The notes under the pieces are model-generated. The model had not been told where the DNA came from. It ran no database searches and was given only the letters and a program-made list of their open reading frames with translations. A DNA stretch of 28,908 nt from positions 1-28,908 of IMG/VR virus record IMGVR_UViG_3300033388_001398; one strand, written 5' to 3'. The position numbers were made by a program, and so were the translations under genes. Source of the DNA: a virus. This document shows positions 1 through 27,501 of the stretch, piece by piece (the stretch's first letter is position 1; every line of letters begins with the position of its first letter).

Positions 1-106
1 TAAAACAAAATTTATATAAGAAGATATTATTTAGTATATAAGCAATAACTTACTTTTTCTCTCTTAAACCGTTCTGCTGGTATTAGTTTAAAGAAAGGAT
101 ACGGAT

Positions 107-322
107 ATGGAAGATTTACTAAAAGACATACAAAATATTTATAAAGATGCTTATATGATGTGGGGTTGTGTTCGCATAGATATAAATAAAAAAGTTTACT
201 TGGTAGCTGATTATGATGATTTCTATGGTGTAAAAATTTGGAACGATGATTTAACACACGATCAAGTATTTAAGGCTAAAGATAAAAAAGAATTAATGGA
301 AAAATTAAAAGAATTAAAATAA
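107..322 (+). CDS. Small hypothetical protein, 71 aa
   Basis: First gene in the window. An AAAGGA ribosome-binding site lies about 8 bases before the ATG. The protein is rich in acidic and aromatic residues (for example YDDFYGVKIWNDD around residues 37-48) and ends in a lysine-rich helix. I recognise no family. It opens the run of small plus-strand genes. Bases 1-106 upstream hold no convincing promoter or gene. Calling it real rests on the ribosome-binding site and position. Confidence 0.65.
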   Translation: MEDLLKDIQNIYKDAYMMWGCVRIDINKKVYLVADYDDFYGVKIWNDDLTHDQVFKAKDKKELMEKLKELK

Positions 323-375
323 ACAATCCCCAAAGGCAGAGTTCTTCCCCATTTGCCTAAAGAAAGAAAAAGATA

Positions 376-435
376 ATGGAAAAAGACATAAAAAATATTT
401 TAATAAAAGAATTAAACAAATTAAGGAACAAATAA
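376..435 (+). CDS. Possible 19-aa peptide
   Basis: A very short reading frame (begins MEKDIKNIL, lysine-rich) fits between the stop at 322 and the next start at 437, ending one base before it. It may be a real leader-type peptide coupled to the next gene, or chance in an AT-rich gap. The upstream purine run GAAAGAAAAAGATA is a weak ribosome-binding site. Confidence 0.25.
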   Translation: MEKDIKNILIKELNKLRNK

Positions 436-436
436 A

Positions 437-595
437 ATGAGATATTATGTAACAAAAGGTAATGTAAGAATAAGCAAGTATTATCCTACATATATTCAAG
501 CTAAAATTCATTTATTTGAAGCTAAACTTGTATATAGTTGTAGGTATGGTAACTTCACAGCAAGAGATATTAAAATAAAGAAAGTAGGTAAATAA
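437..595 (+). CDS. Small basic hypothetical protein, 52 aa
   Basis: Open frame from ATG 437 to TAA 595, with AAGGAA just upstream. The next gene starts two bases after its stop. The protein is basic and tyrosine-rich (starts MRYYVTKGN, ends KKVGK). No family recognised. It fills an otherwise empty 270-base stretch between two tightly packed genes, which supports it being real. Confidence 0.55.
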   Translation: MRYYVTKGNVRISKYYPTYIQAKIHLFEAKLVYSCRYGNFTARDIKIKKVGK

Positions 596-596
596 A

Positions 597-914
597 ATGA
601 ATATATTAACATTAAAAGAGATTGAAGAAAACTTAATAAGACCTAGAGAAAGAGTTAAACTAGGAGAAAAAAGAAATCCTGCTGAATTTTATAGTTGCCT
701 TAATCAAATACAAAGGTTAGAAGAATTATTAAAATATGCAAAAGCAATAGAAGAGAAAGACAAACAAATAGAGTTGCTAAAGGAAGAGAATGAAAAGCTT
801 AACAGTGTAAAAGACATAATAGATAATATTTTATATTGGGATACTTGTCCTAAAGAATACAAAGAAAAATTAGCAAAAGCTTTTAATATAACACCAAAAA
901 AGGAGACAGAATAG
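597..914 (+). CDS. Coiled-coil hypothetical protein, 105 aa
   Basis: The middle (about residues 40-70, EEKDKQIELLKEENEKL) is a charged heptad-like coiled coil, so the protein probably forms dimers or higher oligomers. The C-terminal part (DTCPKEYKEKLAKAFNI) looks like a small helical segment. It starts one base after the previous stop. Its last codons (KKETE) contain an AAGGAGA ribosome-binding site for the next gene, a junction design seen again at 5754 and 5998. Function unknown. Confidence 0.7.
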   Translation: MNILTLKEIEENLIRPRERVKLGEKRNPAEFYSCLNQIQRLEELLKYAKAIEEKDKQIELLKEENEKLNSVKDIIDNILYWDTCPKEYKEKLAKAFNITPKKETE

Positions 915-915
915 A

Positions 916-1125
916 ATGGCTTGTTTAGATAACTGGAGCATTAAAAGAATAAGGGAACAAATTATAGATAGAAATAAACAGATATTTACTGTCCAGTATG
1001 GTGATGTTTGTGAGAGAAATTTAAATGAATATGATTTTTCTTCATTGGGTGGTCTTTCACTTAAAAGAATTTTCACAACTAGAGCAGAAGCAGAAAAACA
1101 CTTAAAAGAATTGGAGGGTAAGTAG
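916..1125 (+). CDS. Hypothetical protein, 69 aa
   Basis: Starts one base after the previous stop, with AGGAGA upstream inside the end of the preceding gene. The C-terminus FTTRAEAEKHLKELEGK resembles the helix seen at the end of many small phage proteins, but no family can be assigned. Both neighbours are also tightly spaced, which supports expression from one transcript. Confidence 0.65.
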   Translation: MACLDNWSIKRIREQIIDRNKQIFTVQYGDVCERNLNEYDFSSLGGLSLKRIFTTRAEAEKHLKELEGK

Positions 1126-1126
1126 T

Positions 1127-1306
1127 ATGTTAACAAATGCAGAACACAATTTAACAAAAGGGATTGATAAAATAATAAAAGAATATGAGAATGGCTCTTT
1201 AGATATTGGAGATTTTATATATCAATCTGTTAAGTTGGCAAAAGATTACGGATATATATCTAAGAATATCAAAAATAGATTATATACAGGACCACTAGAA
1301 GGTTAA
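1127..1306 (+). CDS. Small hypothetical protein, 59 aa
   Basis: Starts at ATG 1127, one base after the stop of the previous gene, whose end carries GGAGGGTAAG as ribosome-binding site. The protein (starts MLTNAEHNL, ends TGPLEG) is mixed helical with tyrosines and matches no family I know. The strong ribosome-binding site and the tight junction support it. Confidence 0.6.
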   Translation: MLTNAEHNLTKGIDKIIKEYENGSLDIGDFIYQSVKLAKDYGYISKNIKNRLYTGPLEG

Positions 1307-1330
1307 CAAAAAATAAAGGAAAATAAACAA

Positions 1331-1507
1331 ATGGAAAGTTATATAATATTGGAAAGCTGTATGAGTATAAGTTGGTTGCAAACAGCTGTTAATAGGAAAA
1401 TAGAGGAAGGATATATACCATCAGGTAACATATATATAAAGCAGACAGACAGTCGACTCAATCCAGAGTACTACTACCAAGCTATGGTTAAGAAGGAAAT
1501 AAAATGA
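1331..1507 (+). CDS. DUF1737-like small protein, 58 aa
   Basis: Length and pattern fit the DUF1737 family of about 50-60-residue proteins. An N-terminal strand leads into LQTAVNRKIEEGYIPSGN (residues 16-33, the family's VN..I..GW.P.G pattern), and the C-terminus carries YYYQAMVKK (48-56), the family's typical end. The family occurs in phages and bacteria and has no established function. Its stop overlaps the next start (ATGA at 1504-1507), a sign of translational coupling. Confidence 0.7.
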   Translation: MESYIILESCMSISWLQTAVNRKIEEGYIPSGNIYIKQTDSRLNPEYYYQAMVKKEIK

Positions 1508-1689
1508 TAAAACTAACAAAAGAAGAAATACAAAATAAAATACCAAAAGCAAAGATTTCAGTTCACACTCTACAAATACACAACATAAGAGTAGCAGTAA
1601 ACAGTGGATATATAACAGCAGAGCAAGGCTATCCTTTAGCAATGGAAGCTATTATTAGAAATATTTTATCAAGATGGGGTAGCTACTAA
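1504..1689 (+). CDS. Hypothetical protein, 61 aa
   Basis: Overlaps the DUF1737-like gene by four bases, with AAGGAAATAAA as ribosome-binding site. The protein begins MIKLTKEEIQNKIPKAKI and has a central helix that resembles small DNA-associated phage proteins, but no motif is decisive. Function unknown. Confidence 0.6.
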   Translation: MIKLTKEEIQNKIPKAKISVHTLQIHNIRVAVNSGYITAEQGYPLAMEAIIRNILSRWGSY

Positions 1690-1705
1690 AACATATATAG
1701 AAGTT

Positions 1706-1828
1706 ATGGATAAACACGAAATACACGGCACTAAAACTGTAAGGTATATATCACCAACATCTTGTGTGTTAATTAAAAGAAGAATACCAACCGATAAGAT
1801 AATATATGAAGATAAAGTTGACAAATAA
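1706..1828 (+). CDS. Possible small basic protein, 40 aa
   Basis: Open frame from ATG 1706 to TAA 1828 (starts MDKHEIHGTK, ends DKVDK). Its last codons GTT GAC A supply the -35 box of the consensus promoter that follows. There is no strong ribosome-binding site. It could be a remnant, because the same C-terminal VDK-plus-promoter arrangement ends the gene at 2465-2758. Confidence 0.4.
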   Translation: MDKHEIHGTKTVRYISPTSCVLIKRRIPTDKIIYEDKVDK

Positions 1829-1846
1829 AACAAAGGGTTATATAAT
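1818..1846 (+). promoter_or_regulatory. Perfect sigma70-type promoter
   Basis: TTGACA at 1818-1823, a 17-base spacer, and TATAAT at 1841-1846. This is an exact match to the bacterial housekeeping consensus at the ideal spacing. The start of transcription should fall near 1853. It would drive the genes from 1911 onward and is read by the unmodified host RNA polymerase. Confidence 0.85.
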
Positions 1847-1852
1847 AACAGA

Positions 1853-1876
1853 GGGTGAAGAGTTTATGCTTTACCC
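1853..1876 (+). promoter_or_regulatory. Hairpin at the predicted 5' end of the transcript
   Basis: GGGTGAAG (1853-1860) pairs with CTTTACCC (1869-1876), eight pairs including one G-U, around an 8-base loop. It begins at the predicted +1 of the promoter at 1818-1846. A stem at the 5' end commonly protects phage mRNA from decay. The short ACTTTTG after it also allows weak termination (attenuation), but the T-run is poor. Confidence 0.5.
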
Positions 1877-1910
1877 ACTTTTGACATAAACCAAAGGAAA
1901 GGAAAGAATT

Positions 1911-2204
1911 ATGAAACTACCATTTAAAATAATAAGCAGAAGCGACTACGATTATTTAATTAAGGTTGCCGCTAAAAATGTAAGAAAAGCTAATATAATA
2001 TTAGATTTAAAAGACCAGTACCTTTATGTACTAACACCAGCACAAAAGAAATATAGCACAGGTCATCAACTAAAGAACATATTAAAAAGATTCGGGGTTG
2101 CAATAGAACCAGTACACAAACATACAAAAAGCCTTAACACTAAAGAGAAAAAAGCTATAATGAATTATATGAATAGCTGTGGACAAAGCGAGGTGCATAA
2201 ATAA
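1911..2204 (+). CDS. Basic hypothetical protein, 97 aa
   Basis: First gene after the consensus promoter at 1818. The leader has doubled Shine-Dalgarno sequence (AAAGGAAAGGAAAG). The protein is lysine-rich and mostly helical, begins MKLPFKIISRSDYDYLIK, and has a small C-terminal region rich in His and Lys (PVHKHTKSLNTKEKKA, about residues 68-83). A nucleic-acid role is possible, but no family is recognised. Its last base overlaps the next start. Confidence 0.7.
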   Translation: MKLPFKIISRSDYDYLIKVAAKNVRKANIILDLKDQYLYVLTPAQKKYSTGHQLKNILKRFGVAIEPVHKHTKSLNTKEKKAIMNYMNSCGQSEVHK

Positions 2205-2461
2205 TGAAGGATTTATTAAAACAAGTACAAGAGCATATCGACAATAAAGCTGTATTATTAGAAAAAAGGTACATAGTAGCTGGTATGTCCCCTTGTGATT
2301 ATATTGAATTCAAAGTGAGAGATTATTGCTGGCAAATAGTTTATGATACTCAAAATAATTATTGTGTAATGCAAGCAGGAAATGTTAAACCTATATATTC
2401 TAAAGACAGAAATTTAATATTAGAAGTATTATATGCGATTAAACAAACAGAGGAGAAGTAG
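2204..2461 (+). CDS. Hypothetical protein, 85 aa
   Basis: Starts at ATG 2204, sharing a base with the preceding stop (TAATG), so translation is probably coupled. The predicted fold is mixed alpha/beta, with a central stretch YDTQNNYCVMQAGNVKPIYS (about residues 47-66). No motif points to a function. It lies just upstream of the first zinc-finger gene. Confidence 0.65.
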   Translation: MKDLLKQVQEHIDNKAVLLEKRYIVAGMSPCDYIEFKVRDYCWQIVYDTQNNYCVMQAGNVKPIYSKDRNLILEVLYAIKQTEEK

Positions 2462-2464
2462 AGG

Positions 2465-2758
2465 ATGTTAAAAGAGCATAAAGAAAGAAATGATAAGATA
2501 AAAAAAGACTGTGCTGAGATAGGATTAGCTGTATCAGATAAAGAGATAGATTGTTTTAATGGAGGTGAAACTGTTTGCTCTTATTGTAATGAGCCTGTAA
2601 TGGTTGATGATGATAGACATTCTTGTTCGCCAGTATTATTTAAAAGAATAGAAGCTTTAGAAAAACTAATAGCAAGGTATATAGGAGAGAGTAATAAGGT
2701 TGGAATAATGGAAGTATCAAATGAGGATTTCAAACAATCTGTTGACAAAATAAAATAA
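2465..2758 (+). CDS. Zinc-finger protein, copy 1, upstream of groEL (97 aa)
   Basis: Residues 38-54 read CSYCNEPV followed by HSC, a C-x2-C...H-x-C cluster likely to bind one zinc. An N-terminal charged helix (MLKEHKERNDKIKK) comes before it and a short leucine helix (LFKRIEALEKLI) after. By hand alignment 53 of the first 69 residues match the protein at 4212-4439, on the other side of groEL. This copy has 20-odd extra C-terminal residues, whose final codons (VDKIK) contain the -35 box of the groEL promoter. Function unknown; protein or nucleic-acid binding is possible. Confidence 0.75.
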   Translation: MLKEHKERNDKIKKDCAEIGLAVSDKEIDCFNGGETVCSYCNEPVMVDDDRHSCSPVLFKRIEALEKLIARYIGESNKVGIMEVSNEDFKQSVDKIK

Positions 2759-2770
2759 ACAAATTATAAT
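2742..2770 (+). promoter_or_regulatory. Perfect sigma70-type promoter for groEL
   Basis: TTGACA at 2742-2747, a 17-base spacer, and TATAAT at 2765-2770. Transcription should begin near 2777, 13 bases before the groEL ATG, leaving room for the GAGGA ribosome-binding site. The arrangement, with -35 formed from a Val-Asp codon pair at the end of the upstream gene, repeats that at 1818-1846, so the two promoters may be duplicates. Confidence 0.85.
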
Positions 2771-2789
2771 TAAACAAAGAGGAAAACAA

Positions 2790-4211
2790 ATGATTAAAAG
2801 GAAACTAAATGTAAACGATATAGCTAATGTTATCTCAATAACACTAGGAGCTAAGGGTAAAACTGTTATATTGCCTGATTCTAGAATAACAAAAGATGGA
2901 GTTTCAGTAGCAAAGGCTTATAAAGCAAAAAGCTTATTAGATACAGTTATTAAACAAGTATCATTACAGACATTAGATGAAGTGGGAGATGGAACGACAA
3001 GTGCAATGGTTCTAATGCAATCAATATATAACACACATTGGAGAAAATCATTACCAAGAATAGAGAAACAACTAGATAAAGAGTTTGATATTATAAATAA
3101 CATTATTAAAAAATCCTCAAAACCAATTAAAAACATTAAAGATTTATACAACATTGCTTATGTATCCAGTAATGGAGATGAAGAAATTAGCAAAAATGTA
3201 TCTGAGATATGCAACAAAATTGGTAAAGACGGTAATGTAACATTAGAAATGTCAGAAACAAAAGAAACACATTACAAAATAGATAACGGTTTTACAGTAA
3301 AAGACGGTATTATATCAGCTAATATGTTACAAGGTAAGTCAGAAGTATTTTATAATCCTTTAATTATGGTATGTAAAGACGACATTAACAGTGTATCTAA
3401 TATATTAAAGATAATTAATGAAAGAGTTCTAGGAAAAGAAAAGAGGTCATTTATTGTAGTATGTGATAAAGTAGACACAGAAACAGTATCAGCATTTATT
3501 ACTAATAGAAGAGATAAATTTACAGAAAAAGGGGAGTTAATGCAAAAAGGTCTTGATATAGCGATTATATCAACATCAGATACAGATAACCTATACAAAA
3601 ATATAGCATTACTAACAGATTCAAAAGTATTAGACCAGAATGATGGTGCTTCTTCTTATGATATACAGCCTGATTGGTTAGGAACTTGTAAAAAAGTTAT
3701 TATAAACTTAGATAAAACAGTATTCGTACACACTAAAGACACTAAAGACAAGCCTAAGACTATGAAAAAAGCTGAATGGGATAAACTTATTTCAAAAGTG
3801 GCTACATTAAACATTGCTGGTGCTTCAAGACCAGAGACATTAGAAAAACTTGACCGCTACGATGATGCTTTGAGGTCAACAATGAGTTCCTACGAAGAAG
3901 GATATTGTAAAGGTGGTGGCTGTGTGTGGTTGGAAGCTTCACAAGAAGTTAAACTATTAAAGAAACCTATGCAATCAGTATTCCGTCAAATGGCAAAAAA
4001 TGCTGGTTATTCTAAATTAAAAACTAATAGATTAATAAAACAATGTTTAGCTAAACATAAGCCTTACAACTTCAAGACAGAAGATTGGAACGGTAAAAAC
4101 ATATTCGATAGTGCTAAGGTGTTAAGAGTAAGTTTAGAATCTGCATTAAGCATTGCTAAGTTGTTATTAAATTGTGGTGCTGTGATGGAAGAAAAGAAGG
4201 GGAAGAAATAG
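2790..4211 (+). CDS. groEL: Phage-encoded GroEL-type chaperonin, divergent (473 aa)
   Basis: A group I chaperonin, an ATP-driven protein-folding ring. Conserved equatorial motifs are present in order: ITLGAKGKTV (17-26), ITKDGVSVAK (33-42, matching E. coli Asp52), GDGTTSAMVL (66-75, with the Asp87 equivalent D67), YDDALRST (357-364, Asp398 equivalent D359), EEGYCKGGGCV (369-379) and IFDSAKV (438-444, Asp495 equivalent). The ATPase residues therefore look intact. It is shorter than the usual 540-550 residues. The loss is mainly in the apical domain (about 170-320), which is barely alignable, and the GGM tail is replaced by a basic MEEKKGKK end. Phage GroELs are known from phage EL and from uncultured marine viruses. 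It has its own promoter, a GAGGA site and paralogous zinc-finger genes on both sides. A GroES-like partner lies at 10405-10722. Confidence 0.93.
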   Translation: MIKRKLNVNDIANVISITLGAKGKTVILPDSRITKDGVSVAKAYKAKSLLDTVIKQVSLQTLDEVGDGTTSAMVLMQSIYNTHWRKSLPRIEKQLDKEFDIINNIIKKSSKPIKNIKDLYNIAYVSSNGDEEISKNVSEICNKIGKDGNVTLEMSETKETHYKIDNGFTVKDGIISANMLQGKSEVFYNPLIMVCKDDINSVSNILKIINERVLGKEKRSFIVVCDKVDTETVSAFITNRRDKFTEKGELMQKGLDIAIISTSDTDNLYKNIALLTDSKVLDQNDGASSYDIQPDWLGTCKKVIINLDKTVFVHTKDTKDKPKTMKKAEWDKLISKVATLNIAGASRPETLEKLDRYDDALRSTMSSYEEGYCKGGGCVWLEASQEVKLLKKPMQSVFRQMAKNAGYSKLKTNRLIKQCLAKHKPYNFKTEDWNGKNIFDSAKVLRVSLESALSIAKLLLNCGAVMEEKKGKK

Positions 4212-4439
4212 ATGCTGAAAGAACATAAAAAAAGAAATGATGAGATAAAGAAAAACTGTTTAGTAATAGGATTAAAGTTATCAGATAAAGAAATAGATTT
4301 TTTTAACGGTGGTGAAGCTGTTTGCTCTTATTGTAACGAGCCTGTAATGATTGATGATAAAAACCACTCTTGTGCTCCAGCATTATTTAAAAGAATAGCC
4401 GCATTAGAGAAATTAGTAAAAGAAATGGGAGATAAGTGA
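4212..4439 (+). CDS. Zinc-finger protein, copy 2, downstream of groEL (75 aa)
   Basis: Paralogue of the protein at 2465-2758, with the same order: charged N-terminal helix, CSYCNEPV...HSC zinc cluster (about residues 38-54), then LFKRIAALEKLV. It ends shortly after that helix and lacks the extra tail of copy 1. It begins directly after the groEL stop, with an AAGGGGAAG ribosome-binding site inside the end of groEL, so it is very likely co-transcribed and translationally linked with groEL. Confidence 0.75.
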   Translation: MLKEHKKRNDEIKKNCLVIGLKLSDKEIDFFNGGEAVCSYCNEPVMIDDKNHSCAPALFKRIAALEKLVKEMGDK

Positions 4440-4672
4440 TGATTGGATTTAAACTTACAAGTAAGAAAACAGGTAGGGTTTATATGATGACAGAGATAAG
4501 TGTTTGCAATGAGTATAGTTGTTTAACATTTGATTCTAACAAGGAAGAAGAGCAGGGTATAAGTAGAATTGATGAGTTCAGCGACTTTGAACACGAGGAG
4601 TCAATGAATGATATGAAGATTGAAGAGTATTTCGATATAGAGATTATAAAAGATATAGGAGATAACAAGTAA
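4439..4672 (+). CDS. Acidic hypothetical protein, 77 aa
   Basis: ATG 4439 is preferred over an upstream GTG at 4436. It shares a base with the previous stop and has GGGAGA six bases upstream. The N-terminal part (IGFKLTSKKTGRVYMMTE) looks like a beta-hairpin. The C-terminal half is strongly acidic (EEEQGISRIDEFSDFEHEES). No family recognised. Confidence 0.6.
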   Translation: MIGFKLTSKKTGRVYMMTEISVCNEYSCLTFDSNKEEEQGISRIDEFSDFEHEESMNDMKIEEYFDIEIIKDIGDNK

Positions 4673-4881
4673 TGACTAAAGAACTATTAAAAACTTTAAA
4701 TGAAGTTATGGAAACTTTAGACATAATGATTAAACTAACTAAAGATGCTAAAGCAAAGATTAAAGAATACAAAGATAAGAATAAAGATAAGAATAAAGAT
4801 AATGATTTAATGGAAGAAGAAGTAATAGCATTTATTCAAATATTAATGACTAAGTATAATAAAGAATTAGGAGAGATGTAA
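4672..4881 (+). CDS. Helical hypothetical protein with lysine/asparagine repeat, 69 aa
   Basis: Start overlaps the preceding stop (TAATG), with GGAGATAA upstream. Two amphipathic helices (residues 1-32 and about 46-66) are joined by a repeat of KDKN units (about 34-42) that comes from the 12-base tandem repeat at 4771-4802. It looks like a small coiled-coil protein. Function unknown. Confidence 0.6.
   Translation: MTKELLKTLNEVMETLDIMIKLTKDAKAKIKEYKDKNKDKNKDNDLMEEEVIAFIQILMTKYNKELGEM
4771..4802 (+). repeat. 12-base tandem repeat inside a gene
   Basis: The unit AAAGATAAGAAT occurs twice in full (4771-4782, 4783-4794) and once in part. The unit is a multiple of three, so slippage would change the length of the Lys/Asn linker without breaking the frame. 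Confidence 0.8.
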
Positions 4882-4883
4882 CA

Positions 4884-5075
4884 ATGAAAGTATCAGAGTT
4901 AATAGAAAAGTTAAAGCAGGCAGATGGTAATAAAGAAATATCAATAAAGGTTAACCACAATATAGATAAAGATGATATATTAATAGCTGAAAACTGTATA
5001 GATGGAAAAATAACTTTAGTCCAAAGTGTTGATATAGCATTAGGGCTGAGTAAAGGAGACAACAATAATGACTAA
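4884..5075 (+). CDS. Hypothetical protein of a common phage type, 63 aa
   Basis: Begins MKVSELIEKLKQADGNKEI, the opening shared by many small phage proteins (MKVSELIE.L...D.....V), then two short strands ending IALGLSKGD. GGAGAG lies upstream. The role of this type is not known. It overlaps the next start by eight bases. Confidence 0.65.
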   Translation: MKVSELIEKLKQADGNKEISIKVNHNIDKDDILIAENCIDGKITLVQSVDIALGLSKGDNNND

Positions 5076-5412
5076 TTCAAACCCTAATATAGATAACTTA
5101 CAACCTGTTAAAAGCAAGGAAGAAGCAACAAAACGAGGTAAGAATGGCGGTATAGCTAGTGGAGTGGCTAAAAGAGAGAAGAAATTACTAACTGGAGCAT
5201 TAAAAGAATTACTTAAAGAAGGTGAAACTGTTCAAGGTATTAACACAGCATTATTAGAGAAAGCAATGAGTGGAGATACTAAAGCTTATGAAGTTATCCG
5301 TGATAGTATTGGAGAGAAGCCAACAGATAAGCAACAGATTACAGGAGTGCTAGGATTAAACGAAGCTAGTGATGAAGCATTTAGCGATATGATGGAGAAA
5401 GCAAACAAATGA
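5068..5412 (+). CDS. KGG-motif protein, possible small terminase subunit (114 aa)
   Basis: Residues 18-39 carry the K.GG.ASG.A.R.KK pattern (KRGKNGGIASGVAKREKK) followed by a helical segment and AMSGDTKAYEVIRDSIGEKP (67-86). Proteins with this layout are frequent just upstream of the large terminase in phages and are variously annotated as hypothetical or small terminase subunit. A basic N-terminus plus helical core suits DNA recognition at packaging start. Here TerL lies 760 bases downstream, after three small genes. The role is inferred from motif and position. Confidence 0.55.
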   Translation: MTNSNPNIDNLQPVKSKEEATKRGKNGGIASGVAKREKKLLTGALKELLKEGETVQGINTALLEKAMSGDTKAYEVIRDSIGEKPTDKQQITGVLGLNEASDEAFSDMMEKANK

Positions 5413-5771
5413 TAGATAGATTTAAATTTAGAGTATGGGATAACATAGGTAAAAGACATATTTATGATGATTTCTCAATACACGCACAAGGGGAGTTCTT
5501 TAACCTATCTTGTATATGTAGCGATGATATTGTTATAGAACAATGTACTGGTCTTAAGGATAAGAACGGGACTTTGATTTTTGAGGGTGATGTATTAAAA
5601 GTAACTTGGGAAAATGGAAGCCAAAATACACATAGAAAAGAAGTGTTATCTGGTGTAGTTAGTTTAAAAGAATATAACCTTATGTTTTGCACAGGGATAG
5701 AAGATTTTGATTTAATACAATTGGAAGAAGCAGAAATTATAGGAAATATACACACTAAGGAGACTAAGTAG
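5409..5771 (+). CDS. YopX-like protein (120 aa)
   Basis: Matches the phage YopX family: N-terminal FKFRVWDNIGKRHIYDD (residues 5-21), the hallmark QCTGLKDKNGTLIFEGDVL (about 45-63), and C-terminal EIIGNIHTK (108-116). The family is common in phages and prophages and has no proven function. The start overlaps the previous stop (ATGA). Its last codons ETK plus stop hold the AAGGAGACTAAGTA ribosome-binding sequence for the next gene. Confidence 0.88.
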   Translation: MIDRFKFRVWDNIGKRHIYDDFSIHAQGEFFNLSCICSDDIVIEQCTGLKDKNGTLIFEGDVLKVTWENGSQNTHRKEVLSGVVSLKEYNLMFCTGIEDFDLIQLEEAEIIGNIHTKETK

Positions 5772-6014
5772 ATGATAATAATAGAAGTAACTGACAAAGC
5801 AATAGAGATGAAAACAACTATTAACGGTGTAGATTATGCATTAGGATTAGCAAAAGAAAACACTACCTACAGTAGGATACAACAACTGTATAATAGTATG
5901 TTAGCAACTATTGAGATGAAGCAATCCCCTCCCTTTTTTATAACAAAACAACCACAGATTTTGCAATCACCTTGGAAGAAACCATTTGAGATAAATGAAA
6001 AGGAGACTAAGTAA
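5772..6014 (+). CDS. Hypothetical protein, 80 aa
   Basis: Starts directly after the YopX stop with AAGGAG nine bases upstream. The N-terminal half (MIIIEVTDKAIEMKTTINGV) looks like beta strands. The C-terminal half has a proline/phenylalanine segment (QSPPFFITKQPQILQSPWKK). It ends in ETK with the same AAGGAGACTAAGTA sequence as the gene before it. No family recognised. Confidence 0.6.
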   Translation: MIIIEVTDKAIEMKTTINGVDYALGLAKENTTYSRIQQLYNSMLATIEMKQSPPFFITKQPQILQSPWKKPFEINEKETK

Positions 6015-6184
6015 TGAAGGTAGTAACAGAGAAAGTGATGTATTGTGTTTGTTGTGGTAGTCCTCATATAAAAAAGACAAAAGATTGCAAATGGTTTGAG
6101 AAAAAATATCATTGCAAAAAATGTGATGTTGAATTCCTTGTCGATTACATAGACACAACTGGAGGGCTGAATGTTAAAAGATAG
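6014..6184 (+). CDS. Zinc-ribbon protein, 56 aa
   Basis: Two cysteine pairs, CVCCG (residues 11-15) and CKKC (34-37), are spaced as in small zinc ribbons. Start overlaps the previous stop (TAATG), and the 3' end overlaps the terminase start by 14 bases. Its final codons contain the GGAGG ribosome-binding site of terL. Probably binds zinc; a nucleic-acid or protein partner is unknown. Confidence 0.65.
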   Translation: MKVVTEKVMYCVCCGSPHIKKTKDCKWFEKKYHCKKCDVEFLVDYIDTTGGLNVKR

Positions 6185-7796
6185 ATTCGCATATTTCAAA
6201 CTATTAGATGAGCTAAAAGCTATGCCAACAAAAGATAGAAATGGTATGATGAGGAAGCTTGCAAAGAATGACTTATTCTTTTTATGTTGGGCTATCATTG
6301 GTTGGGACTTCTACAACCCTAGAGTTAAGAAAGAAAACTATCAGTATAAAAAAGACAGTAAGGGTGAGATAACAACAGAAGAGAACACAGAAGAACAACA
6401 AGAGTTCTTATACCAAGAAGCATTAAGATGTGCAGAGTATCCATTTAACTTCTGTAAACAAGTAGAAGAAGACCCTAATAGATTATTCTTAGTTGCAAGG
6501 GGGCATTTAAAATCATTAACAGTAACAACAGCACAAAACATTCAAGACATATTAAATCATCCTGATTATAGCATAGGTATAGTTAGTTATAACTTAAAGA
6601 TTGCTAAGTCATTCTTAAAACAAATCAAAACTATATTAGAAGATAATAAACTATTGCAGATATTATTCCCTGATATATTATACACTGATGCTAAAAAGCA
6701 AGCTAAGATGTGGAATGAACAAGATGGTATATGTGTAAGAAGAAATACAAGTAGAAAAGAACCTACCTTATGTGCATTTGGATTAGTTGATTCACAGCTA
6801 ACAGGATTCCATTGTGATATATTAAGCTTTGATGATATGGTTAATGAAAACTCTGTAACAAGTGAAGATATGATTTCAAAGACTACTGCAATGTGGGAAC
6901 TATCTGATAACCTTAAGATGATGACAGAGCAAGGAACACAGAAGAGATATGTGGGAACTCGTTATAATCTATATGATACTTATGCAGAGATTATGGAAAG
7001 AGGAACACCGTTTGTTATTATCCCTGCTACTGATGATGGTACATTAGACGGCGAGACTATATTCTTAACATCTCACCAATGGGGCAAGATGAAAGTTGAA
7101 CAAGGTTCACATACTACATACTTACAGAACTTACTAAACCCTAAAGGTTCAAGAGAAAGACAACTTGATGTTGCTGACTTACAATACTACGGTAAGCTAG
7201 ATGAATCACAGATTAAATTACAACTAATAAGATATATACTTGTTGACCCTGCTAATGCTAAGAATAAGAACTCAGACTATTCAGCATTTATAGTAATAGG
7301 TACAAGTGAAACAGGTAAGATATATATACTTGATATAGTAAGAGATAAGCTAGACCCTACTGAAAGAGTAGAGACATTATTTAAACTACATCGTAAGTAC
7401 AAGCCTTTAAGAGTTGGGTATGAAGAGATTGCATTAGCCAGTGATATACACCATATCCGTAAAAAGATGGAGGAGGAACTTTACCCCTTTACAATTTTAA
7501 AACTAGGTGGTAGAATAAAGAAAGAAGAAAGAATAAGAGATATGCTACAGCCTTATCTTGAAGCACATAAGATATACATACCTACTGAGTTGATGTATAC
7601 AGATTATGAAGACAAGGAAGTAAATCTAACTAAAGACTTTGAGATAGAGATGGATTCATTTCCAGTAGGTAAGCACGATGATATGTTAGATGCATTAGCG
7701 AGACTAGGAGATATAAACTTAATCTTCCCACAAGAGGAAGAAGAACAAGAAGAAGATAACACAATAAACGAAAGGGATAGCTATACAGGTTATTAA
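6171..7796 (+). CDS. terL: Terminase large subunit (541 aa)
   Basis: The ATP-driven motor and nuclease that packages DNA through the portal. The N-terminal ATPase has a variant Walker A, LVARGHLKS (107-115), a Walker B with catalytic acidic residue, DILSFDDMV (216-224), and a coupling motif VGTRYNLYDT (261-270). The C-terminal RNase H-like nuclease shows its acidic residues in YILVDPANA (D359), VGYEE (E418/E419) and KHDDMLDALA (D503/D504). Length is normal. The tail is acidic (QEEEEQEEDN). GGAGG lies five bases before the ATG. The portal gene follows. Confidence 0.95.
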   Translation: MLKDRFAYFKLLDELKAMPTKDRNGMMRKLAKNDLFFLCWAIIGWDFYNPRVKKENYQYKKDSKGEITTEENTEEQQEFLYQEALRCAEYPFNFCKQVEEDPNRLFLVARGHLKSLTVTTAQNIQDILNHPDYSIGIVSYNLKIAKSFLKQIKTILEDNKLLQILFPDILYTDAKKQAKMWNEQDGICVRRNTSRKEPTLCAFGLVDSQLTGFHCDILSFDDMVNENSVTSEDMISKTTAMWELSDNLKMMTEQGTQKRYVGTRYNLYDTYAEIMERGTPFVIIPATDDGTLDGETIFLTSHQWGKMKVEQGSHTTYLQNLLNPKGSRERQLDVADLQYYGKLDESQIKLQLIRYILVDPANAKNKNSDYSAFIVIGTSETGKIYILDIVRDKLDPTERVETLFKLHRKYKPLRVGYEEIALASDIHHIRKKMEEELYPFTILKLGGRIKKEERIRDMLQPYLEAHKIYIPTELMYTDYEDKEVNLTKDFEIEMDSFPVGKHDDMLDALARLGDINLIFPQEEEEQEEDNTINERDSYTGY

Positions 7797-7802
7797 AACA
7801 AA

Positions 7803-9761
7803 ATGAAACTAGATAACATTAAAGAATTAGATAACATCTTAGATAAACTAACTAAGAAAGAAAAACAAGAGATAACAGCAGAGGTAACTGGTTCAGTTGA
7901 TGATGATACTAAACAGCACGCTGAAAGAATACAAACATACGAGGAGATTATTAAAACATCTAGGTCTAAAGTAACAGACCCAGTGAAGAATCATCCTTGG
8001 GAAAAAGCAAGTAACATTAAAATACCAATGATATTAGCAGATAGTAACAGTATCGCCTCTATGATTTCAACAGCAGTATTACAAGACGAGATAGTAAAAG
8101 GTGTTGTTATTGGTAAAGATTCTGTTGAAGTAAATAGCAAACAAGCAAAGGATGGCAAAACAGAACAACCATTAGGTAAACAGGACAGAGCAGATAGAAT
8201 GGCAGAGTATGTTAATTATCTATTAAAATCTAAGATACCTGACTGGGAAGAAACACAAGACTATTTATTCTCAAGAAGTGCTTTATTAGGTAGCCAGTTT
8301 AAAAAGACTTACTGGTGTCCTATTGATAAAGTAGTAAAGAGTGAGTTAATTAACTATGATAACATTATTATATCAGAATCACCTACATTAGAAACAGCAG
8401 ATAGAATTACACATACATATAGCTTAACTATGAGTGAGATTATTGGTAGACAAAGAGCAGGTATTTATTCTAAAGTAGATTTAGAAGAAAAAGAAGATGC
8501 AAACTACGAGATATTAGAAACACATACTTGGTATGACTTAGATGATGACGGTATTAAAGAACCTTATATTATTACACATATTAAGAGTGGAGAATTATTA
8601 AGTATACAGAAACGATTTGATAATGAAGATATTAACTATAACGACAAGAAAGAAGTTATATCTATTAAACCAGTAGAATACTTTACTAAGTATGGGTTTA
8701 TAAGAGATACAGAAAACCCTATCTACGATATTGGATTCGGTCAATTGCTAATGCCAATGAATAAAACATCTAATACTATTGTTAACCAACTAATAGATGC
8801 TGGTACACTTGCTAATACAAGTGGTGGTATTATCGGTGGAGGTTCTGGTATAAGAAGTGGTAACTCTATGAAACTTAAAATGGGTGAGTGGAAAGTATTA
8901 ACTGAAGCTTATGACTTAAAAGCTAATATAGTTCCTATTCAAGGTTCTGAACCATCACCAACATTATTTGCATTGTTAGGTTCATTAACACAGGCATCTA
9001 AGGATATTACAAGCATAAATAGTATTAACCCTGAAAGCATTGGAGCTAATACACCAGCTACAACTACATTGTATATGATAGAACAAGGTTTAACAGAACT
9101 AAAAGCTATCTATAATAGAATCCGTAGGTCTATGAAGGAAGAAACTAAAAAGATTCTATACTTCACAGAGAAGTTCGGTGATGTTAATGATTACATTGAG
9201 GATATGGATTTCGGACAAGCTAGTAAAGAAGACTGGACTAAGCGTTCTCAATATGAAATTGTACCTATTAACGGAACAGATTCATTAACTAGAGGTCAAA
9301 GTATGATGAGAGCAAATGCTGTGTATGAAATGGCTATTGCAGGTAACAATCCATTTATGAGCTTAGAGGAAGCCACTGAATATATGCTTAAAGCATTGAA
9401 GATTGATAACTTCAAGAACTTAATGCAAGAACCACCACAGCAACAACCTAATCCTATTGAACAGGCTATGGCACAGAATCAAGTTGAACTAGGTAAAGCA
9501 CAGAATCTATTGCTTAATGCACAGGCTGGTTCTATCGAGCAGAAAACACAGTTAGATAAAATGAAACTAGCTATGGATAATATGATTGCTAAGATTGATG
9601 CAAGAAACAAAACTGTTAAGACTAACACAGATGCAATAGCACAGATTGCTAAGGCACAAGAGACAGAAGAAAGTATTGTCGAAGAGAAAGAAATAGTAGA
9701 TAAGTATTCAGGTACATTAACTTTACCTAAAGCACCAAACCCATTTGAAGGAGGTGAATAA
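7803..9761 (+). CDS. Portal protein, P22-like type (652 aa)
   Basis: Forms the dodecameric DNA gate at one capsid vertex. Position straight after terL, length, and the motif WEKASNIKIPMI (about residues 61-72) agree with the P22/podovirus portal type. The middle part carries RAGIYSKVDLEE and FGQLLMPMNK segments typical of the stem and wing. A long C-terminal helical region, rich in Gln, Ala and Lys (about 560-635), fits the barrel helix. The ribosome-binding site is weak, suggesting coupling to terL six bases upstream. It ends with GGAGGTGA, which serves the next gene. Confidence 0.9.
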   Translation: MKLDNIKELDNILDKLTKKEKQEITAEVTGSVDDDTKQHAERIQTYEEIIKTSRSKVTDPVKNHPWEKASNIKIPMILADSNSIASMISTAVLQDEIVKGVVIGKDSVEVNSKQAKDGKTEQPLGKQDRADRMAEYVNYLLKSKIPDWEETQDYLFSRSALLGSQFKKTYWCPIDKVVKSELINYDNIIISESPTLETADRITHTYSLTMSEIIGRQRAGIYSKVDLEEKEDANYEILETHTWYDLDDDGIKEPYIITHIKSGELLSIQKRFDNEDINYNDKKEVISIKPVEYFTKYGFIRDTENPIYDIGFGQLLMPMNKTSNTIVNQLIDAGTLANTSGGIIGGGSGIRSGNSMKLKMGEWKVLTEAYDLKANIVPIQGSEPSPTLFALLGSLTQASKDITSINSINPESIGANTPATTTLYMIEQGLTELKAIYNRIRRSMKEETKKILYFTEKFGDVNDYIEDMDFGQASKEDWTKRSQYEIVPINGTDSLTRGQSMMRANAVYEMAIAGNNPFMSLEEATEYMLKALKIDNFKNLMQEPPQQQPNPIEQAMAQNQVELGKAQNLLLNAQAGSIEQKTQLDKMKLAMDNMIAKIDARNKTVKTNTDAIAQIAKAQETEESIVEEKEIVDKYSGTLTLPKAPNPFEGGE

Positions 9762-10168
9762 TGTACAGCAAAGACTTTGAGTTTATGAATAAGTATAAGT
9801 CAGTAATGGGTAATACATCATCGTACTTCAAAACAGGATTGTTTAAAAGAAAGATAATGCGATACTCTACACATTTTCATTATGGTATTAAACAAGAAGG
9901 GTATGCCTGTTTAGTGTATTGCAAAACAAAACAAGAAGCATTAAATATGTATAAACAATATATTGAAGCCTTAATCCCTTATAGAAGTGCTAGCAATAGA
10001 GATATGAAGAACTTAAACATAGTATGGAGATGGTTACCAGAGGTTAAGTATATTAAACAAAAAGCAGACAAAGATTTACAGACTAAAGCAGTGGATGGTT
10101 GGTATGTAAAGTCAAGGTTTGTACTCGCCACAGACAAGGAAATAAAAAGGAGTAACTTAAATGGATAG
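9761..10168 (+). CDS. Hypothetical protein between portal and scaffold (135 aa)
   Basis: Start overlaps the portal stop (TAATG), preceded by GGAGGTGA. The protein is basic and aromatic (YSTHFHYGIKQEGYACLVY, about residues 35-53), with a helix FCKTKQEALNMYKQYI-like segment after it. It could belong to the packaging or head module by position only. No family recognised. Confidence 0.65.
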   Translation: MYSKDFEFMNKYKSVMGNTSSYFKTGLFKRKIMRYSTHFHYGIKQEGYACLVYCKTKQEALNMYKQYIEALIPYRSASNRDMKNLNIVWRWLPEVKYIKQKADKDLQTKAVDGWYVKSRFVLATDKEIKRSNLNG

Positions 10169-10433
10169 AATAACACAATCCCAGTTTAACAGCTGGAAAA
10201 AGGAAGAAGCAGGAAAGCTATTCTTTGACTGGATAAAAGGAAATATCAAGGCAGAGAAGATTAAACTAGAAAGTATATCTAAAACTTCACTTAATTGTAG
10301 TCAAGAAGATTACTATAAGAAATGTGTAGTATGTGGAATTAATATAAGAAACTGGCAAGATATACTAGAAGCTAAAGTAGATTTCATACAAGGAGATGAA
10401 GAAAATGAAAAGCAAACTAAAGGAAATAAGTAA
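10161..10433 (+). CDS. Hypothetical protein with cysteine cluster (90 aa)
   Basis: AAAAGGAG lies upstream of the ATG. The N-terminal part (MDRITQSQFNSWKKEEAG) is helical. The middle has cysteines in NCSQ and KCVVCG (about residues 54-67), which may bind metal. It resembles small proteins often found between portal and scaffold in podophages, none with known function. Its last 29 bases overlap the co-chaperonin gene. Confidence 0.6.
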   Translation: MDRITQSQFNSWKKEEAGKLFFDWIKGNIKAEKIKLESISKTSLNCSQEDYYKKCVVCGINIRNWQDILEAKVDFIQGDEENEKQTKGNK

Positions 10434-10722
10434 ATACGAACCACTTAACACTTACATATTAGTAAAGGTAAAAATCATTAAAGAAACTGATGATGGTTGG
10501 ACACATAGTACAGATGTTAAGAACAGAGGAACATTTGAGAATAAAACTGGTATTATTATAAAACTAGGTAATTCTCTACATAAGGAATACAGACACCTGA
10601 ATGTTGGTGATGAAGTAAGATTTCACGAACATAGAGGGGAAGCTGTTGGGCAGGATGATGACTATTTGTATAGAGCTATACAAGATGTTGACATCTATTT
10701 AATAACTAAGAAAGGAAACTAA
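10405..10722 (+). CDS. GroES / T4 gp31-like co-chaperonin (105 aa)
   Basis: Likely lid of the chaperonin ring. The GroES pattern is visible: YEPLNTYILVK (11-21, like PLHDRVIVK), an exposed loop (about 25-45), TGIIIKLGNS (48-57, like GEVLAVGNG), LNVGDEVRFHEHRG (65-78, like VKVGDIVIF) and YRAIQDVDIYLI (89-100, like SDILAI). Length is close to GroES (97) and gp31 (111). The GroEL docking tripeptide of the mobile loop (GGIVL in GroES) is replaced by DGWTH. ATG 10405 is chosen over 10396 because AGGAG lies nine bases before it. It sits immediately before scaffold and capsid genes, as expected for a capsid-folding partner; the chaperonin ring is encoded at 2790-4211. Confidence 0.8.
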   Translation: MKSKLKEISKYEPLNTYILVKVKIIKETDDGWTHSTDVKNRGTFENKTGIIIKLGNSLHKEYRHLNVGDEVRFHEHRGEAVGQDDDYLYRAIQDVDIYLITKKGN

Positions 10723-10723
10723 G

Positions 10724-11638
10724 ATGACATTTAATAACGAAGAGACTACACCAGTAGTAGAGGAACACGCTTCAGATGTTGTAACAGAAAAGAAATTTTC
10801 TGAGCTAACAAATGAGGACTTAAAAGGAATGAACCAAGAAGAAGTAGAGAACTATGCTAAAGGACAAGGCTGGCAATCAGCTGAGAACTTTAGAGGAGAC
10901 CCTAGAAAAGTCAAGACTGCTATGCAATTTATAAATGACGGTAAGAACGAATTACCTATTATAAGAGCTAATAATAAGAAGCTAGCAGATAGTAACGACC
11001 AACTAAGAAAAGATATGGCTAATTCTACAAAGACTCTAATGGCTAAAATGGAAAGACAAGATGCTAGACATAAGAAAGAACTAGAGAGAGGCATTAAAGA
11101 AGCTGAGAGTAAGATAGCTAAAGCTACAGTTGACTTTGATGTTGTAACTGCCACACAAGAGACAGAGAACAAGGTTGTAATGCAGAATGAGCTAGATGTT
11201 ATGGAAAATGATACTAAGCAGATTCAGGCTCAAACACAACAAACAGAACAACAAAAGGTCAAAGAGTGGGAAACTTGGAGAGGTGGAGTAGAAGCTAATG
11301 AGTTGTTAAGGCAAGACCCAGTTAAATTTATGGGATTTGAAAGAATGGTTGGCGAAACATATATGCAAAACAAAGACCTTCCTACAAGCGAGATTATACA
11401 ACTAGCTAAAGATAAGGCGTATTCTAAAGCATCAGCACCTAATATTCAAGGAGCTAACTCGTCTAAGTCTAAGCCATCATCACCTAGTATTTCAAGAGAA
11501 GATAGGGACTGGATAAACTCTAACATCACAAACGAAACTCAAATGATGAAAAACAGAGGAGCTAGTAACGATGAAATCAAAGCTTATACTAAAAAGCAAA
11601 CAAAACATTATGAATCAAAATTAGAAGAGGAACAATAA
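10724..11638 (+). CDS. Scaffolding protein (304 aa)
   Basis: Acts as the internal template for procapsid assembly. The call rests on position between portal and capsid genes and on composition: acidic N-terminus (TNEDLKGMNQEEVENYAKGQGW, about 27-48), a long charged coiled coil (about 85-190), and a basic C-terminal region (KKQTKHYESKL) of the kind that binds capsid subunits. No protease domain is seen. Confidence 0.75.
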   Translation: MTFNNEETTPVVEEHASDVVTEKKFSELTNEDLKGMNQEEVENYAKGQGWQSAENFRGDPRKVKTAMQFINDGKNELPIIRANNKKLADSNDQLRKDMANSTKTLMAKMERQDARHKKELERGIKEAESKIAKATVDFDVVTATQETENKVVMQNELDVMENDTKQIQAQTQQTEQQKVKEWETWRGGVEANELLRQDPVKFMGFERMVGETYMQNKDLPTSEIIQLAKDKAYSKASAPNIQGANSSKSKPSSPSISREDRDWINSNITNETQMMKNRGASNDEIKAYTKKQTKHYESKLEEEQ

Positions 11639-11639
11639 A

Positions 11640-12152
11640 ATGACTGATAACAAACCAAATAAAACAGATAATTCAGCAACTAATGTGGCGAAAATAACAC
11701 CGATTGAAGAGAAGACAACAAAAGTGCTTGACAATCCGTTAGATGCATTGCATAATATAAAGATAGATAAAAAGGTATATAAAGAAACAGGAATGTTTGA
11801 TATACCAGAGGAACATAAAGACCCGCGTTTTGCTTACGCTTTCCCTTTAATCTCACAAGTTGGCGAGAAACAAAAAAAAGGATGGCATTTATACTCAGAA
11901 ACAATGAGTAAAGCAAAAGATATCGAAGGGCGAGTAGGAAGTGCTATATCATTCTTTGGAAGTCTTGACGATGAGTTAAAAGAATTAGGTCATATTGTAA
12001 TGATTAAAACAAAAGACTCATACAACGAAGAGAAAGAATACATCCAAAAACAAACTGATAGGCAAGAGGAAAGCATTGCAACAGATGCAAAAAATATCAA
12101 AGGTAATTATGGCGAAATCACTAAGGACGATAAGACTAAGATAAAACTATAA
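11640..12152 (+). CDS. Head-region protein of unknown role (170 aa)
   Basis: Begins one base after the scaffold stop. The core segment RFAYAFPLISQVGEKQKKGW (61-80), followed by GHIVMIKTKDSYNEEKE (about 116-132), resembles proteins seen next to capsid genes in podophages. Both ends are charged and probably disordered. A promoter-like TTGACA-N17-CATAAT lies inside at 11728-11756. The gene ends before a strong terminator. Confidence 0.6.
   Translation: MTDNKPNKTDNSATNVAKITPIEEKTTKVLDNPLDALHNIKIDKKVYKETGMFDIPEEHKDPRFAYAFPLISQVGEKQKKGWHLYSETMSKAKDIEGRVGSAISFFGSLDDELKELGHIVMIKTKDSYNEEKEYIQKQTDRQEESIATDAKNIKGNYGEITKDDKTKIKL
11728..11756 (+). promoter_or_regulatory. Promoter-like site inside a gene, ahead of the capsid genes
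   Basis: TTGACA (11728-11733), 17 bases, then CATAAT (11751-11756): one mismatch to consensus, at the first -10 base, which weakens it. It could give extra transcription toward the capsid genes. Chance is possible in AT-rich coding DNA. Confidence 0.3.
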
Positions 12153-12171
12153 TTCATAACAATTTAACAAT

Positions 12172-12213
12172 AAAAAGGAACTTTATGCAGATAAACTGTA
12201 TAGGTTCTTTTTT
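12172..12213 (+). terminator. Rho-independent terminator before the capsid cassette
   Basis: AAAAAGGAAC (12172-12181) pairs with GTTCTTTTT (12204-12212), including one G-U. An inner stem ATGCAG/CTGTAT is also possible. The T-run (12208-12213) forms the terminator tail. It lies 20 bases before the next ATG and probably lowers read-through, adjusting levels of head proteins. Confidence 0.7.
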
Positions 12214-12233
12214 GCTATATAAGGATAAATAAA

Positions 12234-12821
12234 ATGGCAAATACAGATAATGCTTTCGGTTTTAGACCAATTATGTCTAAGGATGGAAGCGGATGGAACG
12301 GTAAGGTTACTAAATATTACATTCCGTCAGGAGTAGCAACTAATGTTTTCATTGGTGATGCAGTCGTAAAGACAGGTACAGCTAATACAGCAACAATTCA
12401 AGGGCATAAGCCAGGTACTTTACCAGCTTTAGCTTTAGCAGCAGCAACAGCAACAACACCTATTACAGGTATTGTAGTTGGATTTGAACCAGTAACAGAC
12501 GAATCTACAAGATACGGTACAGGTGGAACAGATAGAGTTGCATTCGTAGTAGATGACCCAAGAGCTGTATTCGAAGTTCAATGTTCAGGTGATTTTGATG
12601 CAGTAGACACAGGTCTAAATGCTCAAATCGTAGTAGCAGCTGGCTCAACAGCAACTAACCAATCAGGTTACGAAGTGTTAGACACATTCGCAGCAACAGT
12701 TACAAGTCAAATTAAGGCTTTAAGACTAGCTGATAAAGAAGATAACGCTCTAGGAACTAATGCAGTTGTAGAAGTTATCATAAACAACCATACTGAGTCT
12801 AACAACTCATTAGGATTATAA
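12234..12821 (+). CDS. Capsid decoration-type protein (195 aa)
   Basis: A small Ala/Thr/Gly-rich beta protein with phage-head-protein features: NAFGFRPIMSKDGSGWNGKV (6-25), FIGDAVVKTGT (37-47), ITGIVVGFEP (about 78-87) and VVDDPRAVFEVQ (106-117). Proteins of this type usually sit beside the major capsid gene in podophages and are probably head decoration or stabilising proteins. It has AAGGA nine bases upstream and is followed by the major capsid gene. Confidence 0.72.
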   Translation: MANTDNAFGFRPIMSKDGSGWNGKVTKYYIPSGVATNVFIGDAVVKTGTANTATIQGHKPGTLPALALAAATATTPITGIVVGFEPVTDESTRYGTGGTDRVAFVVDDPRAVFEVQCSGDFDAVDTGLNAQIVVAAGSTATNQSGYEVLDTFAATVTSQIKALRLADKEDNALGTNAVVEVIINNHTESNNSLGL

Positions 12822-12831
12822 GGAGTAAATT

Positions 12832-13758
12832 ATGACAATTACAACAGGTTCATTTCCTAAAATGTTAAAAGAAGGTGTTTATACTATTTTTGGTATGACA
12901 TACAACGAAAAAGAACTTCAATGTAAAGACTTATTTGATACATCAATATCAACAAGAAAATACGAAGAAGCGGTATTAAGTTCACCAATGGGCTTAGCAC
13001 CAGTTAAACCAGAAGGTTCATCTATTAAGTATGACGATATGGAACAAGGCTATACTAACAGAGCGACTAATGTTACTTATGGCTTAGGCTTTATCATTAC
13101 TGAAGAAGAAATGGATGATAACCAATATCCAGCTCATTTACAATCAATGGTAAATACAAGAGCAGGTGCTTTGGCTAAATCAATGAGAACTACTAAAGAA
13201 ATTGTTGGAGCTAATCTATACAATAGAGCTTTCAACTCTGCTTACACATTTGGTGACGGTAAAGAAATGATTTCACTAATCCACCCTTCTAAGGCTGGAA
13301 CTTTCTCAAACGAATTAGCTTCAACAGCTTTATCAGAAGCTTCATTAGAAAGTGCTTTAATTGCTATTAGAGGATTTGAAGATGATAGAGGTAAGTTAAT
13401 CGCTGCTAAAGGTGATAAACTAATCGTTCCAAGACAGTTGAAATACACAGCTGACAAAATTTTAAGGTCTGCAATGTCTACAACTGTAGTAACTGAGAGC
13501 ACAACTGGAGTTACTAACACTAATAAGATTAATTCACTTCAAAATGAATTAGCACCATATACAAATGACTATTTATCAAGTTCAACAGCTTGGTACATTA
13601 GAACAGATGTAGACGGTATGGTTAACTACCAAAGAAAAGCACTAGCTTTCTCTGAAGACAATGAGTTTGATACTAACAATCAAAAATTCAAAGCAACAGA
13701 AAGATATGTGTTTACAATGGACGACCCAAGAGCTATTTATGGTTCAGAAGGTGCTTAA
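12832..13758 (+). CDS. Major capsid protein (308 aa)
   Basis: Main shell protein, HK97-fold family by pattern. Evidence: the sequence block GLAPVKPEGSSIKYDDMEQG (about 54-73) leading into YGLGFIITEEEMDDNQY (84-100), both typical of phage major capsid proteins, and the terminal motif MDDPRAIYGSEG. Strong AAGGAG site ten bases downstream of the previous stop. It shares its transcript with the decoration protein and is followed by a hairpin. A likely client of the phage chaperonins. Confidence 0.88.
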   Translation: MTITTGSFPKMLKEGVYTIFGMTYNEKELQCKDLFDTSISTRKYEEAVLSSPMGLAPVKPEGSSIKYDDMEQGYTNRATNVTYGLGFIITEEEMDDNQYPAHLQSMVNTRAGALAKSMRTTKEIVGANLYNRAFNSAYTFGDGKEMISLIHPSKAGTFSNELASTALSEASLESALIAIRGFEDDRGKLIAAKGDKLIVPRQLKYTADKILRSAMSTTVVTESTTGVTNTNKINSLQNELAPYTNDYLSSSTAWYIRTDVDGMVNYQRKALAFSEDNEFDTNNQKFKATERYVFTMDDPRAIYGSEGA

Positions 13759-27075: not shown

Positions 27076-27107
27076 AGGACTAGTCTTAATTGGCTAGTCT
27101 TTTATTT
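27076..27107 (+). terminator. Second hairpin terminator at the convergent junction
   Basis: GACTAG (27078-27083) pairs with CTAGTC (27094-27099), extended outward by one G-U and one A-U pair, followed by TTTTATTT. It backs up the terminator at 27041. The stem overlaps the rusA stop codon on the opposite strand. No good T-run is present in the minus direction. Confidence 0.6.
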
Positions 27108-27501
27108 CTATTATTTCAAACTCTATATAATCTTGTTCTGCATATTTCTTTACTGCGTGAACATCTACTATTTGGCTGTCATCATCATAAGCAATTTTAT
27201 TCAAGGCATCAAAGGCTGATTTTTGTAGATTATCTATATCAATGTTTTTTAAATCAAAATACTTGCCGTAAAGTGCTTGTTTCTTCTTCGTAGAGAAGCT
27301 TTCAGCTGGTTTTAGGTAGAATGTTATATCAATCTTAATTAGACTGCTTGTAGGGGCTTTAAAATAGCCTTTGCACTTTTCAGCAAAATCCTCTTCAAAC
27401 TGCCTAGTTTTACTTGGTGTATACATTACTATATACTTGCCATTTCTTCTAGCCTTTGGTCTTCCTTTTGGAACTGGTCTAATATCTATTAATAACCCCA
27501 T
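27094..27501 (-). CDS. rusA: RusA-like Holliday-junction resolvase (135 aa)
   Basis: Cuts four-way DNA junctions, which phages use to resolve recombination and trim branched DNA before packaging. Signature parts: N-terminal RPVPKGRPKARRNGK (8-22), MYTPSKTRQFEEDF (26-39), and the acidic metal-binding region LKNIDIDNLQKSAFDALNKI (73-92) with YDDDSQIVDVHAVKKY (94-109). Length is typical (about 120-140). It has no ribosome-binding site and overlaps the lysin gene by 13 bases, so it is probably translated by coupling. Last gene of the minus-strand block. Confidence 0.9.
   Translation of the reverse strand: MGLLIDIRPVPKGRPKARRNGKYIVMYTPSKTRQFEEDFAEKCKGYFKAPTSSLIKIDITFYLKPAESFSTKKKQALYGKYFDLKNIDIDNLQKSAFDALNKIAYDDDSQIVDVHAVKKYAEQDYIEFEIIEIKD

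Follow-up and report, generated by a model that had tools for sequence, protein, structure and literature searches.

The locus examined here raises the question of whether a phage that carries genes for both a GroEL-type ring and a GroES-type lid possesses a chaperonin system of its own, and, if so, which proteins that system might serve. The window, as we call the whole 28,908-nucleotide stretch of viral DNA that was analysed, is probably a fragment, since no polymerase or helicase was noticed in it. On the minus strand, 27094-27836 encodes a Holliday junction resolvase of the RusA type together with an M15 peptidase, the latter with matches to phage endolysins.

A group I chaperonin gene with a retained ATP site

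A sequence-only reading of this DNA had placed a group I chaperonin with intact ATPase motifs at 2790-4211 on the plus strand, and our data uphold that assignment. The 473-residue product scored 105 bits against the Pfam family PF00118 (Cpn60_TCP1; curated cut-off 34.3 bits), spanning 490 of 490 profile positions, and matched the PHROG chaperonin GroEL family at 4.8e-72. In an alignment with E. coli GroEL, for which the reference sequence was taken from the MG1655 record, the ATPase aspartates D52, D87 and D398 correspond to D36, D67 and D359 of the window protein, and the same three are present in the aligned orthologue from the 7.3 kb IMG/VR contig L008, discussed below. A check for loss of ATP-binding residues found most of the surrounding nucleotide site retained as well (T30-L31-G32, K51, GDGT, G414-G415, N479 and D495, E. 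coli numbering).

The AlphaFold2 model of the protein, built on a 37-row alignment (pLDDT 85.9, pTM 0.81), superposes on Cpn60/GroEL chains across ~455 residues with Z of 36-38, while group II chaperonin chains gave Z 33 at lower identity; as modelled, the fold is three-domain and nearer group I than group II. Aligned to E. coli GroEL, the apical positions L206, I209, V233 and I237 are still hydrophobic, and three other apical contact positions are changed (Y203 to N, F204 to M, V264 to T). Because some of these contacts are altered, we can only infer that the ring binds the lid.

A co-chaperonin gene beside the head genes

The gene at 10405-10722 (plus strand), which had been read as encoding a GroES-pattern protein, does encode a GroES-type co-chaperonin, of 105 residues from its likely start. 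The start at 10405 is better than the alternative at 10396, as the Shine-Dalgarno sequence AAGGAG at 10390-10395, 9 nt upstream of it, is better spaced. On its own sequence the protein is borderline, since the ORF from 10396 to 10722 scored 20.0 bits against PF00166 (Cpn10), just below the curated cut-off of 21.1 bits, and matched the PHROG GroES family at 2.1e-4. The L008 orthologue scored 38.2 bits, above the cut-off, and a two-sequence profile made from the window and L008 proteins matched Cpn20 in the PDB at 2e-4. By tblastn the window GroES matched no phage record, and a search of phage records with the L008 GroES gave just two matches, both weak.

Structure prediction, in which a missing GroES beta-barrel would have been apparent, gave a Cpn10-type barrel (pLDDT 82.7), so the assignment stands. 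The model matches the Cpn10 structure 1p3h (Z 9.8, rmsd 3.1, 86 aligned), 3nx6 (Z 9.8, rmsd 2.1, 69 aligned) and T4 gp31, 2cgt (Z 9.7, rmsd 2.6, 72 aligned). Its lowest-confidence stretch, residues 37-45 counted from 10396 (pLDDT <50), falls at the position of the mobile loop, which is disordered in the model. The hydrophobic contact tripeptide of this loop is IVL in GroES, but WTH in the window lid and LKL in that of L008; like the altered apical contacts, this weighs against the pairing of ring and lid.

Gene neighbourhood and transcription

A perfect sigma-70-type promoter sequence, TTGACA-17-TATAAT, is predicted at 2742-2770 on the plus strand, 20 nt upstream of groEL (12/12 consensus matches). 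Over both strands of the window, chance alone would give some 0.02 such sites; the promoter and operon assignments are predictions from consensus matching. At the same place upstream of groEL in L008 lies TTGACA-17-TATATT (positions 445-473, 11/12 matches), which strengthens the earlier suggestion that groEL has a promoter of its own. The window holds a second perfect TTGACA-17-TATAAT site at 1818-1846, upstream of an ORF at 1911-2204.

Downstream of groEL, all on the plus strand, are the packaging and head genes. A probable small terminase subunit (5068-5412) precedes the large subunit gene; it has a PHROG match of unknown function, and its C-terminus resembles that of the ORF between groEL and terL in L008. 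The large terminase subunit (6171-7796; PHROG terminase large subunit, 8e-59) and the portal protein (7803-9761; PHROG portal, 7e-12) follow. The lid gene had been described as lying beside the scaffold and capsid genes, and groES does directly precede the probable scaffold gene at 10724-11638, which is so named for its location between groES and the capsid gene and its same place in L008, its product having no Pfam or PHROG family match. The major capsid protein is encoded at 12832-13758 (PF25209, 1.5e-12; PHROG major head protein) and a P22 gp10-like head-closure protein at 14975-16360. The match of the latter to PHROG head closure Hc3 (3e-98) supports a P22-like head-closure protein, in line with the earlier description of a P22-like virion.

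The distance between groEL and groES had been taken to suggest different timing of the two genes, a proposal that our data do not support. Sixteen plus-strand ORFs up to 12152, groEL among them, abut or overlap, no gap exceeding 7 nt; of the four terminator-like sites found in 1-13000 all are on the minus strand, and no promoter site above chance lies upstream of groES. We thus found no evidence for separate operons. Because the unbroken gene run reaches groES and the scaffold gene, the simplest reading is that groEL would be the first gene of the packaging/head operon and groES a later gene on one transcript.

Two further features of this region were noted. A YopX-family protein (PF09643, 43 bits) is encoded at 5409-5771, within the operon between groEL and the terminase, and groEL has on either side one copy of a small gene whose product carries a CSYCNEPV motif (2465-2758 and 4212-4439), the duplicated stretches, 2434-2671 and 4181-4418, being 79% identical over 238 nt. 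No such copies adjoin groEL in L008, so the duplication was either gained in the window or lost in L008.

A relative with the same gene order

Searches of viral contigs with single proteins and with two-row alignments returned L008 as the only close relative, and a terminase search of genome contigs yielded neither a prophage nor a host. The gene order of L008 is that of the window: groEL and a terS-like gene come first, followed by terL, the portal gene and a small ORF, and then by groES and the beginning of a gene that resembles the scaffold gene. Protein identities between the two are 68% for GroEL, 68% for the terminase, 59% for the portal, 51% for GroES and 44% for the product of the gene after groES, so that groEL is as conserved as the terminase and more conserved than the portal. 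Approximate dN/dS values, at a dS near saturation, are ~0.14 for groEL and ~0.30 for groES. The shared order, the identities and the low dN/dS together indicate that the pair has been maintained and is no accident of assembly. Host contamination as the source of groEL is ruled out, the L008 groEL lying in the same head operon.

A shortened ring protein

What is unusual here is the ring protein itself, which is trimmed down in a way so far seen in one relative only, L008. The two GroELs are 473 and 455 residues long, compared with 515-556 in 31 other viral GroELs. When 62 GroELs were aligned, only in these two was the greater part of the first 15 residues missing, together with 4 from the stem loop, 19 from the apical region 339-360 and 14 from the equatorial region 425-440. 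The last region is shortened too in the GroELs of phi14:2 and cr108_1 (by 11 and 9 residues, respectively), in which the other three regions are not. Since the deletions are common to two diverged phages, they are old and have been kept.

Residues at the positions of contact between subunits and between rings differ as well. At the inter-ring positions of E. coli GroEL, compared as residues only, A109 and E434 are lost to the deletions, E461, S463 and V464 are replaced by S, L and K, respectively, and R452 is retained. R197 and E386 form an inter-subunit contact in GroEL; in the window and L008 proteins they are D and R, a reciprocal swap found in 0 of 60 other GroELs (in the window, D172 at codon 3303-3305 and R347 at codon 3828-3830). 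On the basis of the inter-ring losses and the charge swap, we hypothesize that the contacts of the window GroEL ring have changed and that it may be a single ring.

In a phylogenetic tree the window and L008 GroELs form a very long branch, of unsure placement, apart from the phage and bacterial GroELs, and because of its length neither the source nor the host of groEL can be read from the tree. Recent capture of groEL from a host was considered and is unsupported: the listed bacterial matches show 24-29% identity, much as the phage ones do, and the branch is long and separate.

Rings and lids in other phages

The sequence-only reading had set a phage ring and lid together against the lone lid of T4 and the GroEL-type protein of EL, and had pointed to their separate placement; neither the pair nor the separation is new. 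Among the 600 candidate stretches listed from IMG/VR, at least 568 encode GroEL relatives. Cpn10 was found above the cut-off in 20 of the 40 longer groEL-bearing viral contigs examined, and in 25 contigs with both genes (a count that includes L008 and two near-identical contigs) the genes lie within 1 kb in 13 and further apart in 12, separated pairs thus being about as common as adjacent ones. Lid counts made with plain Pfam Cpn10 are lower bounds, since that search missed the window's own groES.

Some phages have been reported to have both GroEL and GroES homologues (PMC7185714), and both genes are in the deposited records of several isolates. The record of Bacteroides phage DAC16 contains both. 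Cellulophaga phage phi38:1 has an annotated group I ring (gp005) and Cpn10 lid (gp007), but these are nearly adjacent and lie among replication genes, and its GroEL (521 residues, 26-27% identical to that of the window) is without the deletions. Both proteins are also annotated in the isolated Flavobacterium phages elemo and immuto, the former of which resembles the window in its fairly small genome (60 kb) and is named as a podovirus; in both, however, the genes are adjacent and the GroEL is of normal length. The elemo record (MT497069) has a second gene annotated as chaperonin cpn10, at 11516-12001, away from the groES-groEL pair; no paper on the elemo phages and chaperonin came up in a literature search. 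Ring and lid genes lie apart within one genome, as in the window, in the Vibrio phages 1.244, K351 and phiKT1024, although these genomes are large (158-191 kb); in 1.244 the lid is 76 kb from the ring.

T4 gp31 and RB49 CocO are phage lids of the Cpn10 fold (the window model matches gp31 with Z 9.0-9.7), but those phages encode only the lid (PMC9598537), whereas the window encodes a ring too. The giant phages EL, OBP and AR9 encode divergent GroEL-type rings, as the window does. Among phage chaperonins it is these that have been purified and subjected to structural study, and they reportedly act with no lid (PMC9598537, PMC7185714).

Order of acquisition

Distant relatives of the portal were found on fourteen viral contigs, of which 13, mostly short, with near-duplicates and representing about four distinct types, were searched by profile. 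A GroES-like gene was present in 9 of the 13 and groEL in none, and in all three contigs whose ORFs were mapped the GroES-like gene directly precedes a scaffold-like gene. The absence of groEL from these contigs is weak evidence, since they are mostly short and near-duplicated. The P22-like phage DSL-LC05 (complete, 37.6 kb), whose gp10 is the closest head-closure protein to that of the window (33% identity), has an annotated GroES beside the portal and no groEL. Since a lid without a ring is the usual state among the portal relatives, the lid looks to be the older element of the head module and the ring a later, lineage-specific addition. By analogy with gp31, the older lid probably served first with host GroEL; the ring would then have been added in the lineage of the window and trimmed.

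Proposed function of the pair

The explanation we consider probable is that the phage has its own group I chaperonin system, in which groEL heads the packaging/head operon, groES is on the same transcript between the portal and scaffold genes, and virion proteins, such as the capsid or fibre proteins named in the sequence-only reading, are the proposed clients. Expression would be late, groEL being transcribed as the operon's first gene from the strong sigma-70-type promoter directly before it, with groES further along. The phage ring would take up non-native phage proteins at its hydrophobic apical groove and hydrolyze ATP, the phage lid would close it by way of the mobile loop, and the capsid or other large virion proteins would fold without reliance on host GroEL. 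The pairing of GroEL with GroES, the formation of a ring, the shared transcript and the service to virion proteins are what we infer.

It is also conceivable, though rather unlikely, that the two genes provide separate activities, the lid acting mainly with host GroEL, like T4 gp31, and the phage GroEL acting alone, like those of EL, OBP and AR9. The GroES-like genes in the head modules of relatives that have no phage groEL would fit such a division, as would the reported independence of the EL, OBP and AR9 chaperonins from a co-chaperonin (PMC9598537) and the divergence of the window GroEL, with its partly changed apical contact residues; on the other hand, both genes are kept together and in order in L008, and apical positions L206, I209, V233 and I237 are still hydrophobic. 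Far less probable, in our estimation, is that the phage GroEL is a reduced protein, partly decayed or repurposed, for example as decoy, scaffold or host-chaperonin regulator, that forms no standard capped double ring. While the four shared deletions described above, the absence of A109 and E434 from the inter-ring positions and the very long branch are what such a history might leave, they are countered by the low dN/dS, the full ATP site with D398 present, the strong promoter-like site conserved in L008, and the occurrence of the same deletions in two diverged phages, which marks them as old and kept.

Within the explanation we prefer, that of a phage-owned ring and lid, a more specific proposal can be advanced tentatively, as a possibility somewhat against the odds: that a small P22-like podovirus carries, among the genes of its head operon, a minimal group I chaperonin whose trimmed ring is without the N-terminal strand and without most inter-ring contacts of the E. 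coli type, and probably works as a single ring with a dedicated lid. With 455-473 residues, a lid of its own and a link to the head genes, so compact a ring would show how small a chaperonin with a lid can become and would be a tractable system for finding its virion client, and the presence of the lid without a ring in relatives makes the order of lid first and ring later testable.
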